A stretch of DNA of 64,000 bases from Thermoleophilum album (GTDB lineage: Bacteria; Actinomycetota; Thermoleophilia; Solirubrobacterales; Thermoleophilaceae). The first letter of the stretch is position 1; each line of letters begins with the position of its first letter. Made by a program: the position numbers and the translations under genes. Under the pieces are notes generated by a model. It was not told where the DNA came from, ran no database searches, and was given only the letters and a program-made list of their open reading frames with translations. The DNA lies in NCBI RefSeq assembly GCF_028867705.1, contig NZ_CP066171.1:806001-870000 (forward strand), given 5' to 3'. Positions 19,514 through 27,419 of this stretch are shown here, piece by piece.

Positions 19514-21589
19514 ATGATCGTCGCGATCGACGGCCCCGCTGGCGCGGGCAAGAGCACCGTTGCGCGGGCGCTCGCCGAGCGCCTCGGTTTCCGCTACCTC
19601 GACACCGGTGCGATGTACCGCGCGGCGGCGCTCGCCGCGAGCCAGCAGCCCGACCGCGCCCCCGCCGACGTTGCACGCGCGGCGCGGATCGAGTTCGCCC
19701 CCGACGGCCGCGTTCTCCTCGACGGCGTCGACGTCACCGCCGCGATCCGCACTGCCGACGTCGCCGAGGCGGCGTCGCGGATCGCCGCCGACCCGGCGGT
19801 GCGCGAGGCGCTCGTCGCCAAGCAGCGTGAGCTTCTTGCCGATGGAGACTGGGTAGCCGAGGGGCGCGATATCGGCACGGTCGTAGCGCCGAACGCCGAG
19901 ATCAAGGTTTTTCTCGACGCCGACGCGCGCGAGCGCGCGCGCCGCCGTGCCGCCGACACTGGCCGCGACCCCGAGGAGGTTCTGCGCGAGCAGGAGGTGC
20001 GCGACCGCCGCGACAGCGAGCGCCAGCACTCGCCGCTGCGCCCGGCCGGCGACGCGGTCACGATCGACACCACAGCGCTGTCGCTCGACGACGTCGTCGC
20101 GCGGATCGCCGCTCTCGTTGCGCGCAAGAGCGAAGCTGCTGCTGGGGGTGGGGGGCGCAGTCGCGACGGTCGCCCGCGCGTCGCGGTCGTCGGCTTCCCG
20201 AACGTCGGCAAGTCGACGCTCGTGAACCGCCTGGCGGGCGTGCGCGAGGCGGTCGTCGACTCGGCGCCGGGCGTGACGCGCGATCGCAAAGAGGTCACGG
20301 CCGAGTGGGGAGGGCACGAGCTTGTGCTGGTCGACACAGGCGGTGTCGACGAGGCCGACGACGGCGTGATCCAACGCCAGGTACGCGCGCAAGTGGAGCG
20401 TGCCCTCGCCGAAGCCGATGTCGTGCTGCTCGTGTGCGACGCGCGCGCCGGGCTGCGTCCCGGCGACGCCCAGCTTGCGCGACTGGTGGCGCGCGCCGGC
20501 AAGCCGGCGCTCGTCGTCGCCAACAAAATCGACGATGTCCGCCAGGTCGGTCTCGCCCAGGAGTTTTGGCGGCTCGGGCTCGGCGAGCCGCTCGCGGTGT
20601 CGGCGATCCACGGGCTCGGCAGCGGCGATCTGCTCGACCGCATCGTCGCGCTGCTGCCGCCCCCGGCAGCCGCCCCTGATGTCCCGCCACCGGAAACAGC
20701 CGCCGCCGCGCCGCCCCCAGCCGGCGCTGCCACGGCGGCCCCACAGCGCGCACCCGCCTTTGCGCCCGACCGTCTGCCGCAGCTCGCACTGATCGGCCGC
20801 CCGAACGTCGGTAAGTCGTCGCTGCTCAACCGCCTGTTCGGCGACGAGCGGGTGGTCGTGACCCCGATCGCGGGCACCACACGCGACGCGATCGACACCG
20901 AGGTGGAGTTCGCCGGGCGGCGTTTCGTGCTCGTCGACACCGCGGGCATCCGCAGGCGCGGGCGTATCGACCAGCCCGCCGAGTGGTACGCCCGCCTGCG
21001 CTCGGAGCGCGCGGCCGAACGCGCCGACGTGGCGATCGTCGTCTGCGACGCCAGCGAGGGCGTCACGAGCGACGATCTGCGCATCGCCGAGCTGGCGATG
21101 CGCGCCCACTGCGCGACGGTGATCGCCCTCAACAAGTGGGACGCGACGCGCTGCGATATCGAGGAGGCGAAGGCACGCGTGGCCGCGCGCCTGCGCCAGC
21201 GCCCGCCGGTGATCGCCGTCTCGGCCCACACCGGGCGCGGGCTGAAGCGCCTGGTCGCCACCGCGCTCGAGCTCGCGGCACGCGTTCACGAGCGCTTGCC
21301 GACGCCGGTTCTGAACCGGTTCCTCGCCGAGGTCGTCGCGGCGCGCCAGTCGCCAGCGGTGCGGGGCAAGCGCCTGCGTACCTACTACTTCACCCAGTAC
21401 GACACCGCACCGCCGCGCTTCGCCCTGCAGGTCTCCGACCGGTCGCTGGTGGCCCGCGACTGGGTCCTTTTCCTCGAAAACCGCTTGCGCGAGCGGTTCG
21501 CTCTCGAAGGCGTGCCGCTGGTTATCGACCTGCGCGAGCGCTCCGGGCGGCGACCCGCTTCCGCGCGTGGCCGCAGGCGGGTATCTTGA
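19514..21589 (+). CDS. cmk-der: Fused cytidylate kinase and ribosome-assembly GTPase Der
   Basis: One 691-residue reading frame joins two proteins that are usually separate. Residues 1-212 are CMP kinase: P-loop GPAGAGKST at 7-15, [11 protein letters not shown], and [12 protein letters not shown]. After a short Gly-rich linker, residues 220 to the end are Der/EngA, with first G domain GFPNVGKST near 226, [11 protein letters not shown], and NKIDD. An Ala/Pro-rich linker of about 40 residues follows (around 380-422), then the second G domain GRPNVGKSS near 428, DTAGIRRRG and NKWD. The C-terminal KH-like domain has [10 protein letters not shown] and [13 protein letters not shown]. Such fusions are known in some actinobacteria. 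No internal stop or frameshift was seen. Confidence 0.94.
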
Positions 21590-21692: not shown

Positions 21693-22937
21693 ATGCGTCT
21701 GAGCGAAAACGAGTTCCTCTTCACCTCCGAGTCGGTCACCGAGGGGCATCCCGACAAGATCGCCGACCAGATCTCCGATTCGGTTCTCGACGCTGTCCTC
21801 GCCGAGGACCCGGACGGGCGCGTGGCGTGCGAGACGCTCGTCAACACCGGCCTTGTGATCATCTCGGGCGAGATCACCACCGACGCCCACATCGACTTCG
21901 TCGAGATCGCGCGCGAACGGATCCGCGAGATCGGCTACACCGACGCCGCCTTCGGCTTCGACTGCCACACCTGCTCGGTGCTGTGCGCAATCGACAAGCA
22001 GTCGCCTGACATCGCGCAGGGGGTGAACAAGGCGCTCGAGGCGCGCAAGGGCGAGGCCGACGAGTTCGACATCGCCGGCGCCGGCGACCAGGGGATGATG
22101 TTCGGCTACGCCACGCGCGAAACACCCGAGCTGATGCCGCTGCCGATCCAGCTCGCGCACACGCTGGCGCGCCGGCTGGCCGAGGTGCGCAAGGACGGCA
22201 CGCTCGACTACCTGCGTCCCGACGGCAAGACACAGGTGACCGTGCGCTACGTCGACGAGCGGCCGGTCGAGATCGTCAAGCTGCTGATCTCGACGCAGCA
22301 TGCCGAGGGCAAGGACGCCGAGCGCGACATCAAGCCCGATCTGTGGGAGCACGTGGTGCTGCCGGTGCTCGGCGAGCGCTACGGCGACATGTTCGACGAG
22401 GCACAGCTCAAGCGCAGCTTCCTCGTCAACCCCACCGGCAAGTTCGAGATCGGCGGCCCGATGGGCGACTGCGGACTGACCGGCCGCAAGATCATCGTCG
22501 ACACCTACGGCGGCATGGCTCGCCACGGCGGCGGTGCCTTCTCGGGCAAGGACCCCTCGAAGGTCGACCGTTCGGCTGCCTACGCGGCGCGCTACGTCGC
22601 TAAGAACGTCGTCGCCGCGGGGCTAGCTGATCGGTGCGAAGTGCAGGTCGCCTACGCGATTGGGGTCGCCCGTCCGGTTTCGCTGATGGTCGAGACGTTC
22701 GGGACCGAGCGCGTGCCGAAGGCACGGATCCTCGAGCTGATCGACGAGAACTTCGACTTGCGGCCGCTCGCGATCCGCAAGCACCTCGACCTGCACCGCC
22801 CGATCTACCGCAAAACGGCAGCGTACGGGCACTTCGGTCGCGAGGAGCCGGAGTTCACCTGGGAGCGCACCGACAAGGCCGAGGCGCTGCGCACCCAGGC
22901 TGGGCTCGAGCGCGACGCAGCGCCGGCGAGCGCCTAG
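21693..22937 (+). CDS. metK: S-adenosylmethionine synthetase
   Basis: Makes SAM from methionine and ATP. The 414 residues include the N-terminal [20 protein letters not shown] block, the hexapeptide [13 protein letters not shown], and the P-loop-like [29 protein letters not shown] and [12 protein letters not shown] close the C-terminal domain. An insertion around [17 protein letters not shown] matches actinobacterial MetK. The upstream frame is open to 21567, but ATG 21693 preceded by CGGAGA fits the family start. The 103 nt leader does not match the SAM riboswitch classes I know. The gene ends against a long convergent hairpin at 22957-22988. Confidence 0.96.
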
Positions 22938-22956: not shown

Positions 22957-22988
22957 GGTGAGCGGCGCGCCGTGGCGCGCCGCTCACC
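22957..22988 (-). terminator. 15-bp perfect hairpin, terminator between metK and the secreted-protein gene
   Basis: GGTGAGCGGCGCGCC (22957-22971), GT, then its exact reverse complement (22974-22988). On the minus strand the stem is followed by TCTTTCC and shortly after by CTTTTCC, so it best terminates the minus gene ending at 23013. It also sits 19 nt after the metK stop and may serve both directions. Confidence 0.7.
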
Positions 22989-23012: not shown

Positions 23013-23828
23013 TCAGCAGCGGACGCGGGTGCGCGCTACGTAGGAGCGGCCGTTCTCGTCGACCCCGCTCACCTCGACCAGGCGCTGCTTTCGGTTCTGG
23101 CAGGCGATCGACGAGAAGTAGCCGACCTTGCGTGTGCGGCCGGCGACGCGCGCCTTGCCGACGATCCGACGGAAGCGCCCATCGAGTCGCTTGACGAGGA
23201 TTGTGAGCCCGGCGATGTGGCGCAGTTCGGGCGGCACCGTGAACTCGATCCCGCCCGCCGGCTTGCCGCCCAGTCGCGGCGTGATGAAACGCCCTGGCAG
23301 CACGTTCTGGGGCGGCGACTGGACGGGACACGGCGGGTCGGGGCTGACATCAAGCCGGATCGCCAACCCGGTGCCGGTGTTGTAGAAGGTGGTAGCGAGG
23401 TTGCAGGTCGGCGTCGTGGCGACCGGCTCGCCCGGCACCCCATACCACACCTCGATCGTGCCGGTGCCGACCTTGGCCCGTTTGCAGACCTTGGCGTGGT
23501 CTCCGCTCGAGGCTTGCGCCAGCGTGCAGCGCCCGGCGATCTTCGGGAACACGCGCCCCCCCTGGATGACGATGCGGTAGCGCTCGAGCGGGGCGACGAT
23601 CACGCCGCCAGGCGGATGGATCTCGGCGCTGAAGGAGAGATCCTTCGCTAGCGGCTTGGTAGGCGATCCTGACCCGTAGGGGAGACCCCTGCCCTTGACC
23701 GTAATCAGGTTCTGGGCGTCGACGGCGCCGCTCGCCGCTGCGGCGAGGGCCACAGCCGCCAACGCCCCGGCTGACGCCGCGGCGGCGACCACGGACCGCC
23801 GCGGCCGGTGCGATGACGCGCTTGGCAT
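23013..23828 (-). CDS. Secreted six-cysteine protein of unknown function, paralogue A
   Basis: I do not recognise a named family. The 271 residues begin with an Arg-containing n-region and a long Ala/Val hydrophobic stretch (about 12-38), a probable Sec signal peptide. The mature part has six cysteines, the last being the final residue (RTRVRC). Blocks shared with the downstream paralogue are LPYGSGSPTKPLAKDL, VIQGGRVFPK, CKRAKVGTGTI, GIEFTVPPELRH and FSSIACQNRKQR. A beta-rich extracellular protein with three disulfides is plausible. The leader carries a duplicated AAGGAGGA (23831-23838 and 23841-23848), a sign of high translation, and a TTGACA-containing promoter further up. It has its own terminator (22957-22988). 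Confidence 0.8.
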   Translation of the reverse strand: MPSASSHRPRRSVVAAAASAGALAAVALAAAASGAVDAQNLITVKGRGLPYGSGSPTKPLAKDLSFSAEIHPPGGVIVAPLERYRIVIQGGRVFPKIAGRCTLAQASSGDHAKVCKRAKVGTGTIEVWYGVPGEPVATTPTCNLATTFYNTGTGLAIRLDVSPDPPCPVQSPPQNVLPGRFITPRLGGKPAGGIEFTVPPELRHIAGLTILVKRLDGRFRRIVGKARVAGRTRKVGYFSSIACQNRKQRLVEVSGVDENGRSYVARTRVRC

Positions 23829-23951
23829 CGTCCTCCTTCCTCCTCCTTGCGATCACGCCAGCAGAGGTGGCGTATCTCTCGCTCCCTCAAGACGTCGCTC
23901 GCTCCGGCGCGTCCCGCGAAGCGCCGACACGGCAACGTTCGATGTAACAAC

Positions 23952-23978
23952 ATTTCATGACGCATGCGGCGATGTCAA
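23952..23978 (-). promoter_or_regulatory. Candidate promoter of secreted paralogue A
   Basis: Read on the minus strand, TTGACA (complement of 23973-23978) is followed after 15 nt by TGAAAT (complement of 23952-23957), or after 17 nt by AAATGT. The -35 is perfect; the -10 is imperfect and the spacer of the better one is short. The patch is clearly AT-richer than its surroundings. Confidence 0.5.
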
Positions 23979-24046
23979 GGAGGAACCGAGCCGTGGGCGG
24001 TGCGGGCGATCCGGTCGAGAGCGGTCCGGACGCGACGAAAGGCCGG

Positions 24047-24081
24047 AAAAAGCGAGGAGCCCGGACCGTGGTCCGGGCTCC
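24047..24081 (-). terminator. Rho-independent terminator of secreted paralogue B
   Basis: GGAGCCCGGACC (24056-24067), GT, and its exact reverse complement (24070-24081), a perfect 12-bp stem. On the minus strand the stem is followed by TCGCTTTTTCC, a proper U tract. It lies 50 nt beyond the stop of the gene at 24132. Confidence 0.85.
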
Positions 24082-24131
24082 CGCACCCTCCGCCCGCACG
24101 GGAACGAGCGGAGACGACTCGCGCTCGTGCG

Positions 24132-24941
24132 CTAGCAGCGCACGCGCCGCGACACCGTCACCGACTTGCCGTCCTCGCCGGTGAACACCACCTGCGCGTA
24201 GCGGTACTTCTTGCTGTCGCAGGCGATCGAGCCGATGTAGGGGACACGCACGCGCTTACCGCGAATGCGGACCACCCGCGTCTGGCGGAAGATCTCGCTC
24301 TTCACGTAGCGCACCGGCACGTCGAGACCGCCCGGATGCAGCAGCTCCTGCGGCACCGTGAACTTGAGACCGCTCGACGGCTTGCGACGCACGCGCGGCT
24401 TAGTCCACTTGGCGATGATCGACTGGCCGCTGATCGGGCAAGGAATCGTCGCCGGCGCCTGGAACGGCCCTTGCGCCGGGTCGAGACGCAGCGCCACGCG
24501 GCCGCGCGACATGTTGTACATCACCAGATCGATCTGGCAGGTGCCCGCCGCTTGCGCGAGCGGTTGGCCAGCCTTGCCGATCGTCGCGATCACCGTGCCC
24601 TTGCCGACCCGCGCCTTCTTGCACTTCTGGGCGAGGACGTTTGGGTCGGGGTTGTTGACCTGGTTGTCTGGACAGGTCGGGAAGTACTTGGCGAACTGAG
24701 TGCCGCCCTGGATGCGGAACTCGTACGACTTCACCGGCACCGGCACGGTGTTGTCGTCGCTGTCAACCCAGTACTCGATGACGAGGTTCTTGGGAAGCGG
24801 CTTCTTCGGCGAACCCGAGCCGTACGGCTTGCCGAAGCCGTCGGCGCGGTACACGTTCGCCGCGTAGGCAACCGCCGCTACGACGAGACTCGCGACCAAG
24901 GCGAGCGCTGCGCCGAGCGCCAGTCTCCGTTTCGATCGCAT
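24132..24941 (-). CDS. Secreted six-cysteine protein of unknown function, paralogue B
   Basis: Family not recognised. The 269 residues start with RSKRR and a hydrophobic stretch ending in VAYA-AN, a good signal peptidase I site near residue 28. All six cysteines align in order with paralogue A and again the last residue is Cys (SRRVRC). Shared blocks are KPYGSGSPKKPLPKNL, RIQGGTQF, CKKARVGKGTV, GLKFTVPQELLHPGGL and IGSIACDSKKYR. The mature protein is Lys/Arg-rich, so probably basic. AAGGAGGAG lies five nucleotides before the ATG, and a strong terminator follows (24047-24081). The two genes are tandem duplicates with separate promoter and terminator signals rather than one operon. Confidence 0.82.
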   Translation of the reverse strand: MRSKRRLALGAALALVASLVVAAVAYAANVYRADGFGKPYGSGSPKKPLPKNLVIEYWVDSDDNTVPVPVKSYEFRIQGGTQFAKYFPTCPDNQVNNPDPNVLAQKCKKARVGKGTVIATIGKAGQPLAQAAGTCQIDLVMYNMSRGRVALRLDPAQGPFQAPATIPCPISGQSIIAKWTKPRVRRKPSSGLKFTVPQELLHPGGLDVPVRYVKSEIFRQTRVVRIRGKRVRVPYIGSIACDSKKYRYAQVVFTGEDGKSVTVSRRVRC

Positions 24942-25226
24942 CGTTCTCCTCCTTGCGCTGCTGTGGACAAACCGACCAGGGGGCTCTTTCGCTCTACAAC
25001 ACGCGCCCGTCCCGAAAGTCGCGGCGCGGGCGACGCGGTTGCGGACTGTGCCGACGCCCCCGTCGCCGACCGTCCGCTCTCACCTGTTCGCGCATCCTAG
25101 CCCTCCGCCCTGCTGCGACAACCCCGGCAGGTGTCACCGGGCGTCCGGAAGCGCACCAGCGCCTGCGCGCTCACGCTTTTCGGAGTCCCGCGAGCGCCGC
25201 CGCTCGACCGTTTAGCGTCCGCGCCC
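24942..25226. other. 285 nt divergent region between paralogue B and priA
   Basis: Contains the Shine-Dalgarno of paralogue B (complement of 24946-24954) and must hold promoters for both directions. On the minus strand GTGTTGTAGAG may be a weak -10 region. I found no convincing -35/-10 pair on either strand and no RNA gene. Confidence 0.45.
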
Positions 25227-27419
25227 GTGGCGCAGGCGATCGCAAGGGTGTGGCCGCTCGTGACGACGCGCGCTCTCGCCGGCCCCCTCGACTACCGCGT
25301 CGACGACGAGTTCGAGGGAGCGGTGACCCCGGGCGCGTTGCTCGTCGTGCCGCTCGGGCGCCGTCAGGTGGTCGGCGTCGTCGGCGAGCTCGCCGACCAG
25401 AGCGCTGTCCCCGCCGACCGGCTGCGCTCGCCGCGCGCCCTGCTCGCCGAAGCGCTGCCCGAGCATCTCGTCGGCTTCTGTCGGTGGCTAGCCGCACGCT
25501 ACTGCTCGACGCCCGCGCGTGCCTTCGCTCTCGCCTTGCCCCCCGGCATCGGCCGCGGCGGCGGCGCCGAGCGGCGGCGGCGGATCGTCGCCGAGCTCAC
25601 TGCCGCTGGTAGCGAGCTGCTCGCCGCAGCCGACGGGGCGGGCGTCGCCACCCCCCTCGGTGCGCTCCAACGACGGCTGCTCGCGGCGCTAGCCGCAGGG
25701 CCGCAAAGCGCCGAAGCGCTCGACGCCGCCATCGGCCGGCCGGCGCGGCCGAGCTTGCTGCGTCTCGAGCGCCGCGGGCTCGTCCGTGTGCGCCGCAGCG
25801 GAACGGTCGCGCGACCCGCGGCCACGGCCGCGGTCGGGCGCGCACACGAGGCTGCTTCGCGGCTGACCGCCGACCAGGAGCGTGCGCTCGCCGCGATCGA
25901 GCGCGCTCTCGCCGAGCCGGCGCCGGCGCCGCTGCTCTTGCACGGCGTGACCGGCAGCGGCAAGACCGAGGTCTACCTGCGGGCGGCCGCCCGCTGCCTC
26001 GAGCAGGGACGCGACGTGCTCGTCCTTGTTCCCGAGATCGCCCTCGCGCCGCAGACGGTGGCGCGCTTCCGGGCGCGGTTCGGCGACACGGTCGCGTTGC
26101 TTCACTCCGGCCTTTCGGCGGCTGCGCGCCGCGGCGAATGGGAGCGCTTGCGTAGCGGGCGCGCACGGATCTGTGTCGGCGCGCGCTCAGCGCTGTTTGC
26201 GCCCCTCGCGCGGCTCGGCCTCGTCGTTGTCGACGAGGAGCACGACGACGCCTACAAGCAGGACCAGGATCCACGCTACGACGCTCGCCGCGCGGCCGAG
26301 GAGCTCGCGCGCCGCAGCGGCGCGCTACTGCTCGCGGGGAGCGCGACGCCGCGCGTCGACAGCTTCGTGCGGTGGCGAAGGATCGAGCTGTCGCGGCGCG
26401 CCGACGGAAGCGCACTGCCGCCGGTCGAGGTCGTCGCGGCGCCCGCCCCTGGCCGACTCACGCAAACGGCGGTCGACGCGCTCGAGGAGCTCGTGCGCCG
26501 CCGCGGCAAGGCGATCGTGCTCCTCAACCGACGCGGTTTCGCGCCCTATGCAAGTTGTCGCTCCTGCGGCGAGACGCTCGGCTGCCCGAACTGCGACGTC
26601 GCGCTGGTTTACCACCGCGCGCAAGGCGCGCTGCGCTGCCACCACTGCGGCCACGCCGAAGCGCTGCGCGGGCGCTGTCGCAACTGCGGCTCGGTGTCGC
26701 TAGCGCTCGCTGGTGCCGGCACCGAACAGCTCGAAGCGGCGCTCCGAGCGATCGTCGCCCCGCTTCCTGTGTTCCGGCTCGATGCCGACACCGCCACCGG
26801 CGCCAGCGACGAGCTCCTCGCGCGCTTCGAGGCGGCAGACGCCGGGGTGCTGGTCGGCACCCAGCTCGTAGCCAAGGGCCACGACTTCGCCGGGATCGAG
26901 CTAGGGCTGGTGGTCGCCGCCGATGCGGCGCTGGCGATCCCCGACTACCGCGCCCAGGAGCGCGTCTTCCAGCTCGTCACCCAGCTCGCCGGACGCGTCG
27001 GCCGCGGCGGGTGCGGCGGTCGTGTGATCGTGCAGGCGCGCGACCCTAACGCCCGTGCCCTGCGCTACGCAGCCAACCACGACAGCACCGGCTTCGTGCG
27101 CGAGGAGAGCGAGTGGCGGCGGACGCTCGGCTATCCGCCGTTCGTCGAGCTCGTCTACCTCGAGCTGCATAGCACCACGGCGGGTCGCGAGCTCGCCGCG
27201 GCCGACGCTCTGCGCGCCGCGTTGGCCGAGCGCGGCGTGCAGGCGCTGGGCCCGGCGCCCCTCTTTCGGCGCGCCGGCAAGTACCGGGCGCGGCTAGTGG
27301 TGAAAGCCGCGCCGCCGGCCGATGCCGAAATCGGCGCGGTGCGGGAGGCGGTCGACGCTCTCGTCGCGCGGCGCTCGTTCCGCGACGTCGCGGTAGCCGT
27401 AGACGTCGACCCCTGCTAG
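25227..27419 (+). CDS. priA: Primosomal protein N', replication-restart helicase PriA
   Basis: DNA helicase of 730 residues that reloads the replisome at stalled forks. An N-terminal DNA-binding domain (about 1-105) starts PLVTTRALAGPLDYRV. The helicase core has GVTGSGKTEVY near 240-250, VPEIALAPQT, and DEEHDDAYKQ near 335-344. A zinc-binding insert carries CRSC, CPNC, CHHC and CRNC pairs (about 443-492). GTQLVAKGHDF and QLAGRVGRG are helicase motifs V and VI. Actinobacterial PriA is often degenerate, but here the Walker A lysine and DEEH box are intact, so helicase activity is plausible. GTG start. def follows after 53 nt, with fmt beyond aceB, a usual Gram-positive grouping. Confidence 0.94.
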   Translation: MAQAIARVWPLVTTRALAGPLDYRVDDEFEGAVTPGALLVVPLGRRQVVGVVGELADQSAVPADRLRSPRALLAEALPEHLVGFCRWLAARYCSTPARAFALALPPGIGRGGGAERRRRIVAELTAAGSELLAAADGAGVATPLGALQRRLLAALAAGPQSAEALDAAIGRPARPSLLRLERRGLVRVRRSGTVARPAATAAVGRAHEAASRLTADQERALAAIERALAEPAPAPLLLHGVTGSGKTEVYLRAAARCLEQGRDVLVLVPEIALAPQTVARFRARFGDTVALLHSGLSAAARRGEWERLRSGRARICVGARSALFAPLARLGLVVVDEEHDDAYKQDQDPRYDARRAAEELARRSGALLLAGSATPRVDSFVRWRRIELSRRADGSALPPVEVVAAPAPGRLTQTAVDALEELVRRRGKAIVLLNRRGFAPYASCRSCGETLGCPNCDVALVYHRAQGALRCHHCGHAEALRGRCRNCGSVSLALAGAGTEQLEAALRAIVAPLPVFRLDADTATGASDELLARFEAADAGVLVGTQLVAKGHDFAGIELGLVVAADAALAIPDYRAQERVFQLVTQLAGRVGRGGCGGRVIVQARDPNARALRYAANHDSTGFVREESEWRRTLGYPPFVELVYLELHSTTAGRELAAADALRAALAERGVQALGPAPLFRRAGKYRARLVVKAAPPADAEIGAVREAVDALVARRSFRDVAVAVDVDPC

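Follow-up and report, generated by a model that had tools for sequence, protein, structure and literature searches.

What are the two six-cysteine proteins encoded between priA and metK in Thermoleophilum album, and what would they be for? A preliminary description of the locus had reported two tandem minus-strand genes for secreted paralogues of 271 and 269 residues, here called P0001 and P0002. Their coordinates, strand and lengths are exact (Table 1; positions refer to the window, that is, the whole analysed stretch of 64,000 nucleotides). Aligned with BLASTP, the two chains are 36% identical across 238 amino acids (E 5e-42). All six of their cysteines align, as had been described, and the terminal residue is a cysteine in both.

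Table 1. Features of the P0001-P0002 locus and a distant paralogue in the same genome.
Feature	Position	Strand	Basis or remark
P0002 CDS, predicted exported six-cysteine beta-sandwich protein, 269 aa	24132..24941	(-)	
P0001 CDS, tandem paralogue of P0002, 36% identical, 271 aa	23013..23828	(-)	
P0002 putative signal peptide, residues 1-27, cut between AYA and AN	24861..24941	(-)	sequence and conserved columns A25/A27
P0001 putative signal peptide, residues 1-38, cut between VDA and QN	23715..23828	(-)	hydrophobic run and A-x-A-type site
P0002 Shine-Dalgarno, AAGGAGGAG	24946..24954	(-)	
P0001 Shine-Dalgarno, AAGGAGGAGGAAGGAGGA	23831..23848	(-)	doubled
P0002 terminator, hairpin and U run	24047..24082	(-)	
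Hairpin 3' of P0001, perfect 14 bp, weak U tract	22957..22988	(-)	
metK, convergent neighbour	21693..22937	(+)	
priA, divergent neighbour	25260..27419	(+)	longest ORF begins 25131
Third paralogue, strongly diverged	about G000:C1:1575096-1575956 (L079, L106)		long branch in tree

Each gene had been credited with a hairpin terminator of its own, and a hairpin does follow each of them. That of P0002 has 12 bp and a U run (fold z -5.8). The perfect stem after P0001 (fold z -4.3) is followed only by CUCUUUCC, so that this terminator, which sits between the convergent metK and P0001, is less canonical than that of P0002. It is possibly shared by both convergent genes. Given the two hairpins, P0001 and P0002 probably form two separate transcription units, flanked by the divergent priA on one side and the convergent metK on the other. 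The neighbouring MetK matches that of Bacterium HR41 at 100% identity and PriA does so at 99.6%; this bacterium has been placed with Thermoleophilum album (PMC6544083). Elsewhere in the window, at 19514-21589, cytidylate kinase and GTPase Der are apparently fused, as their translation reads as one 691-aa frame.

The genes had also been called strongly expressed by design, a claim that is half supported. Each has a strong Shine-Dalgarno sequence, as described, and such sites are rare: at least five Shine-Dalgarno bases precede 9 of the 46 called genes of the window. The same threshold is reached by 53 of 78 family members, whose starts were picked without regard to this signal; the corresponding Fisher p of 2.8e-7 is only indicative, as the relatives' sequences from other genomes share descent. 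Codon usage gives no backing. In its adaptation to ribosomal protein genes the P0002 gene is ordinary (63rd percentile) and the P0001 gene the lowest of the window, by an index that set ribosomal genes poorly apart from others; we thus set this index aside as an argument for high expression. Strong expression is suggested by the ribosome-binding sites only.

No named family had been recognized in the pair, and this holds. At curated cut-offs neither protein falls into a family of the Pfam or NCBIfam profiles, and sequence searches of Pfam, NCBIfam, PHROGs and the PDB return no relatives of either. Among 21 relatives, likewise, no Pfam or NCBIfam family matched two or more. A first search, with a single sequence against 299 genomes of the class, gave matches in 26, one of them outside the order, weak and interrupted by stops. 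With the profile built from the 21 sequences, 125 of 399 class genomes prove to contain relatives, every one of them belonging to the family or order of the window, and among 296 genomes of the phylum its matches are confined to the same order and occur in no other. Both the class and the phylum profile scans scored just the best candidates per genome, so a genome without a match may still have a member. A search of plasmids for the family found none.

Many genomes carry several copies, often in tandem, for example five in L081 and five in L085, and the paralogues are divergent in sequence. In a sister species the pair likewise lies between priA and metK; by our tree, the P0001/P0002 duplication predates the split from this species, and other tandem pairs cluster by lineage. 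Proteins exclusive to the class Thermoleophilia and of no assigned function have been catalogued, one of them, WP_093117523.1, with 269 aa (PMC6544083). The P0002 family could be this signature protein, the likeness being one of equal length only.

How would the proteins leave the cell? Signal peptides had been proposed, and family alignments agree: after a hydrophobic N-terminus, A25 is conserved in 84% and A27 in 93% of 58 members (alignment columns), so the export signal extends to the relatives. We read the signal peptides directly from the sequences, and the conserved A-x-A fits signal peptidase I cleavage, which would leave mature chains of about 233-242 aa. There is no lipobox in P0001 or P0002 and no cysteine directly after the signal peptide, as the first cysteine (residue 90 in P0002, 101 in P0001) is far from the cut site. 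Nor did we see a cell-wall attachment signal: a sortase motif of LPXTG type with a C-terminal membrane segment is absent from both translations as read. Both chains finish instead in the last beta strand, at the cysteine, according to the translations and the P0002 model.

The cysteines follow a simple frame. Four of them (C90, C107, C241 and C269 in P0002) are present in P0001, P0002 and nearly all of the 58 aligned relatives; C90 and C107 are never missing, C241 hardly ever, and the last core cysteine is usually a few residues or less from the chain end. A cysteine at the very end had been pointed out in both proteins. It is present in both, yet of 78 relatives no more than 27 have it as the exact last residue; a cysteine lies among the last eight residues in 66. 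We rejected a special C-terminal tag or anchor, as many relatives extend a few residues past the cysteine, which is the last core cysteine and the probable partner of C241. The remaining two, C135 and C168, occur together in 27 of the 58 relatives, are both missing from 31 and never occur singly. Their joint presence amounts to a single change on the tree, the only one available to a test of independent gain or loss, and is therefore weak evidence for pairing. Hence the six-cysteine pattern, correct for the two proteins, marks a subfamily by its alignment, and the wider family has a four-cysteine core. We infer that C90 pairs with C107 and C241 with C269 as core bridges, with an additional C135-C168 bridge in the six-cysteine subfamily.

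Apart from cysteines, the conserved columns contain almost only glycine, proline and one asparagine. Asn143 is the sole polar column of the mature chain above 64% identity, and no histidine is conserved. With no catalytic residues among these columns, the family members are probably not enzymes.

An AlphaFold model of P0002, computed from the 58-sequence alignment, is confident (pLDDT 89.9, pTM 0.85) and nearly all beta, arranged as a sandwich. The disulfides would hold this single-domain fold together, the terminal cysteine closing its last strand. Compared with the PDB, the model reaches at best Z 6.6 (ACE19), and no Foldseek match has an E below 0.01; such similarity is weak and, at the level of the model, indicates no more than a common arrangement.

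A more informative relative is found in the same genome. At G000:C1:216673-219912 (L078), an open frame of 1,080 codons encodes a protein of four modules with the same cysteine frame and no Pfam or NCBIfam match. A two-module member of this group lies at G000:C1:1582411-1583685 (within L106:11460-13073). Searching with part of the four-module protein, we obtained many relatives, including single frames of 4,643-7,223 codons in one family of the order. In the longest (G127:C7:253703-275371; L108, L109), the N-terminus bears a hydrophobic segment and the four-cysteine pattern is complete in 30 modules; the same module recurs in frames of 4,643-6,523 codons in three other genomes of that family (G172, G124 and G382). 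Each module is about 207 aa long, and none matches Pfam. Outside the class, two genomes (G503 and G561) gave weak matches to the module profile, with no recognisable cysteine frame in the frames inspected.

Profile comparison indicates that the P0001/P0002 family is homologous to these modules. An alignment of 34 module rows matches the single-domain family with an hhalign probability of 95.5 (E 1.6e-8, 165 columns). Against a score of 59.8, the highest of 60 column shuffles reaches 17.1; the score is still 45.0 with every cysteine masked, and one protein (from G017) is matched by both profiles. Both groups share the core C-C...C-C frame, a predicted beta sandwich and an N-terminal hydrophobic, export-like segment. 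They differ in inter-cysteine spacing and in architecture: the giant proteins repeat four-cysteine modules 2 to 30 times per chain, whereas P0001 and P0002 each consist of one six-cysteine domain. The fold of P0001 and P0002 would thus be the same kind of module that the large secreted proteins of the order carry in series.

From the A-x-A export signal, the confident sandwich model, the missing catalytic residues, the expansion of paralogues and the homology to giant-protein modules, we lean towards P0001 and P0002 being exported, disulfide-braced, non-enzymatic structural bricks of the extracellular space or cell surface. Strong Shine-Dalgarno sites across the family, tandem arrays and the PDB look-alikes of both the P0002 and module models, mostly extracellular Ig-like domains, count in favour; ordinary to low codon usage, the lack of a visible cell-wall attachment signal, the weak PDB similarity of P0002 and the single change behind C135/C168 count against. 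Abundant structural or cell-surface proteins had been guessed before: the role is the best supported of the readings but, like the abundance, stays an inference.

Could the sandwich rather be surface-active? The Bacillus hydrophobin BslA, secreted by the Sec route, is surface-active and forms films, on an Ig-like scaffold (PMC4551309). Proteins of this type in Thermoleophilum would move to an interface and coat cells or biofilm, a fitting role in a thermophile that uses alkanes. Among the best matches of the giant-protein module model (pLDDT 94.5, pTM 0.88) are indeed BslA (Z 9.1 and rmsd 2.5, with 114 positions aligned) and YweA (also Z 9.1), which would resemble the window proteins in Sec secretion and scaffold. 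The matches listed for P0002 itself, however, do not include BslA, neither it nor YweA has a sequence match to the window proteins, and a common fold shows no function; we deem a film former unlikely.

Gene neighbourhoods in other genomes bring in a second alternative, a secreted disulfide protein with a redox- or stress-linked role, co-regulated with a thioredoxin-like gene. Twelve genomes, from six genera and two families, have a gene of the secreted family transcribed away from one for an AhpC/TSA-like thioredoxin-fold protein; the two starts are 92-151 bp apart, and ispH lies near several of these pairs. Such a neighbour hints at a specific, regulated role and not at bulk structure. Against it, CxxC is absent at the expected place from all 18 thioredoxin-like sequences read, no export signal was seen in the thioredoxin-like protein, and the intergenic region, once aligned, reveals recurring promoter-like pieces only and no clear shared operator. 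The window pair, moreover, is not adjacent to the thioredoxin-like gene, and we give a redox partner a small chance.

The arrangement does bear on the history of the pair. One genome (G282) has the order SpoIIM-like gene, family gene, thioredoxin-like gene and ispH, and T. album keeps it around the third paralogue, with two genes inserted. The G282-type site is probably ancestral, and the window pair would then consist of relocated, retained copies. We found no Shine-Dalgarno sequence ahead of the likely start of the third paralogue, which overlaps the end of a haem-oxygenase/TENA-like gene. A thioredoxin/AhpC-like gene without CxxC lies at L106:6674-7477 of the same genome.

Another reading, a ligand-specific adhesin, inhibitor or effector that diversified through duplication, seems just as improbable as a redox partner. 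The paralogues are divergent, and collagen-binding and pilin domains are the best P0002 matches (Z 6.0-6.6); the Gram-positive Ig-like domains of ACE19, CNA, SdrD and RrgB, all extracellular sandwiches, are among the best listed, at Z 5.7-6.6. This likeness is weak and non-specific, the values being at the background level of beta sandwiches; we identified no conserved binding surface, and the window proteins have no sortase or other attachment motif. Finally, a chaperone for copper or another metal like YcnI (DUF1775) is very improbable: this extracellular sandwich domain heads the matches of the module model (Z 9.8 with rmsd 2.5) and comes second for P0002 (Z 6.4), but it shares no sequence or Pfam match with the window proteins, whose predicted mature termini, A-N or Q-N, lack the N-terminal histidine of the YcnI monohistidine brace, its defining copper ligand, and YcnI has a membrane helix at its C-terminus as a tether (PMC8424229).

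Ig-like bricks of the extracellular space are a known kind of protein. The databases and papers searched appear to contain no description of the family, of its confinement to a single order among the sampled genomes or of its presence in giant chains; our literature search likewise gave nothing on surface proteins or giant proteins from the order. As structural bricks, P0001 and P0002 would serve as building blocks of an envelope coat or matrix, the tandem paralogues being variant bricks. A broader proposal is possible, though we would sooner doubt than assert it: that a single actinobacterial order has its cell surface or extracellular matrix defined by an undescribed disulfide-braced beta-sandwich brick, which occurs singly in small secreted paralogues and in series, up to 30 modules long, in giant proteins. 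An unnamed, tandem-expanded family whose module recurs in giant modular proteins provides concrete candidate genes for a bacterial coat or matrix in this order. The small protein, from a thermophile lineage, also lends itself well to structure determination, and the family as a whole is a lead to giant secreted proteins left unnamed in current family databases.
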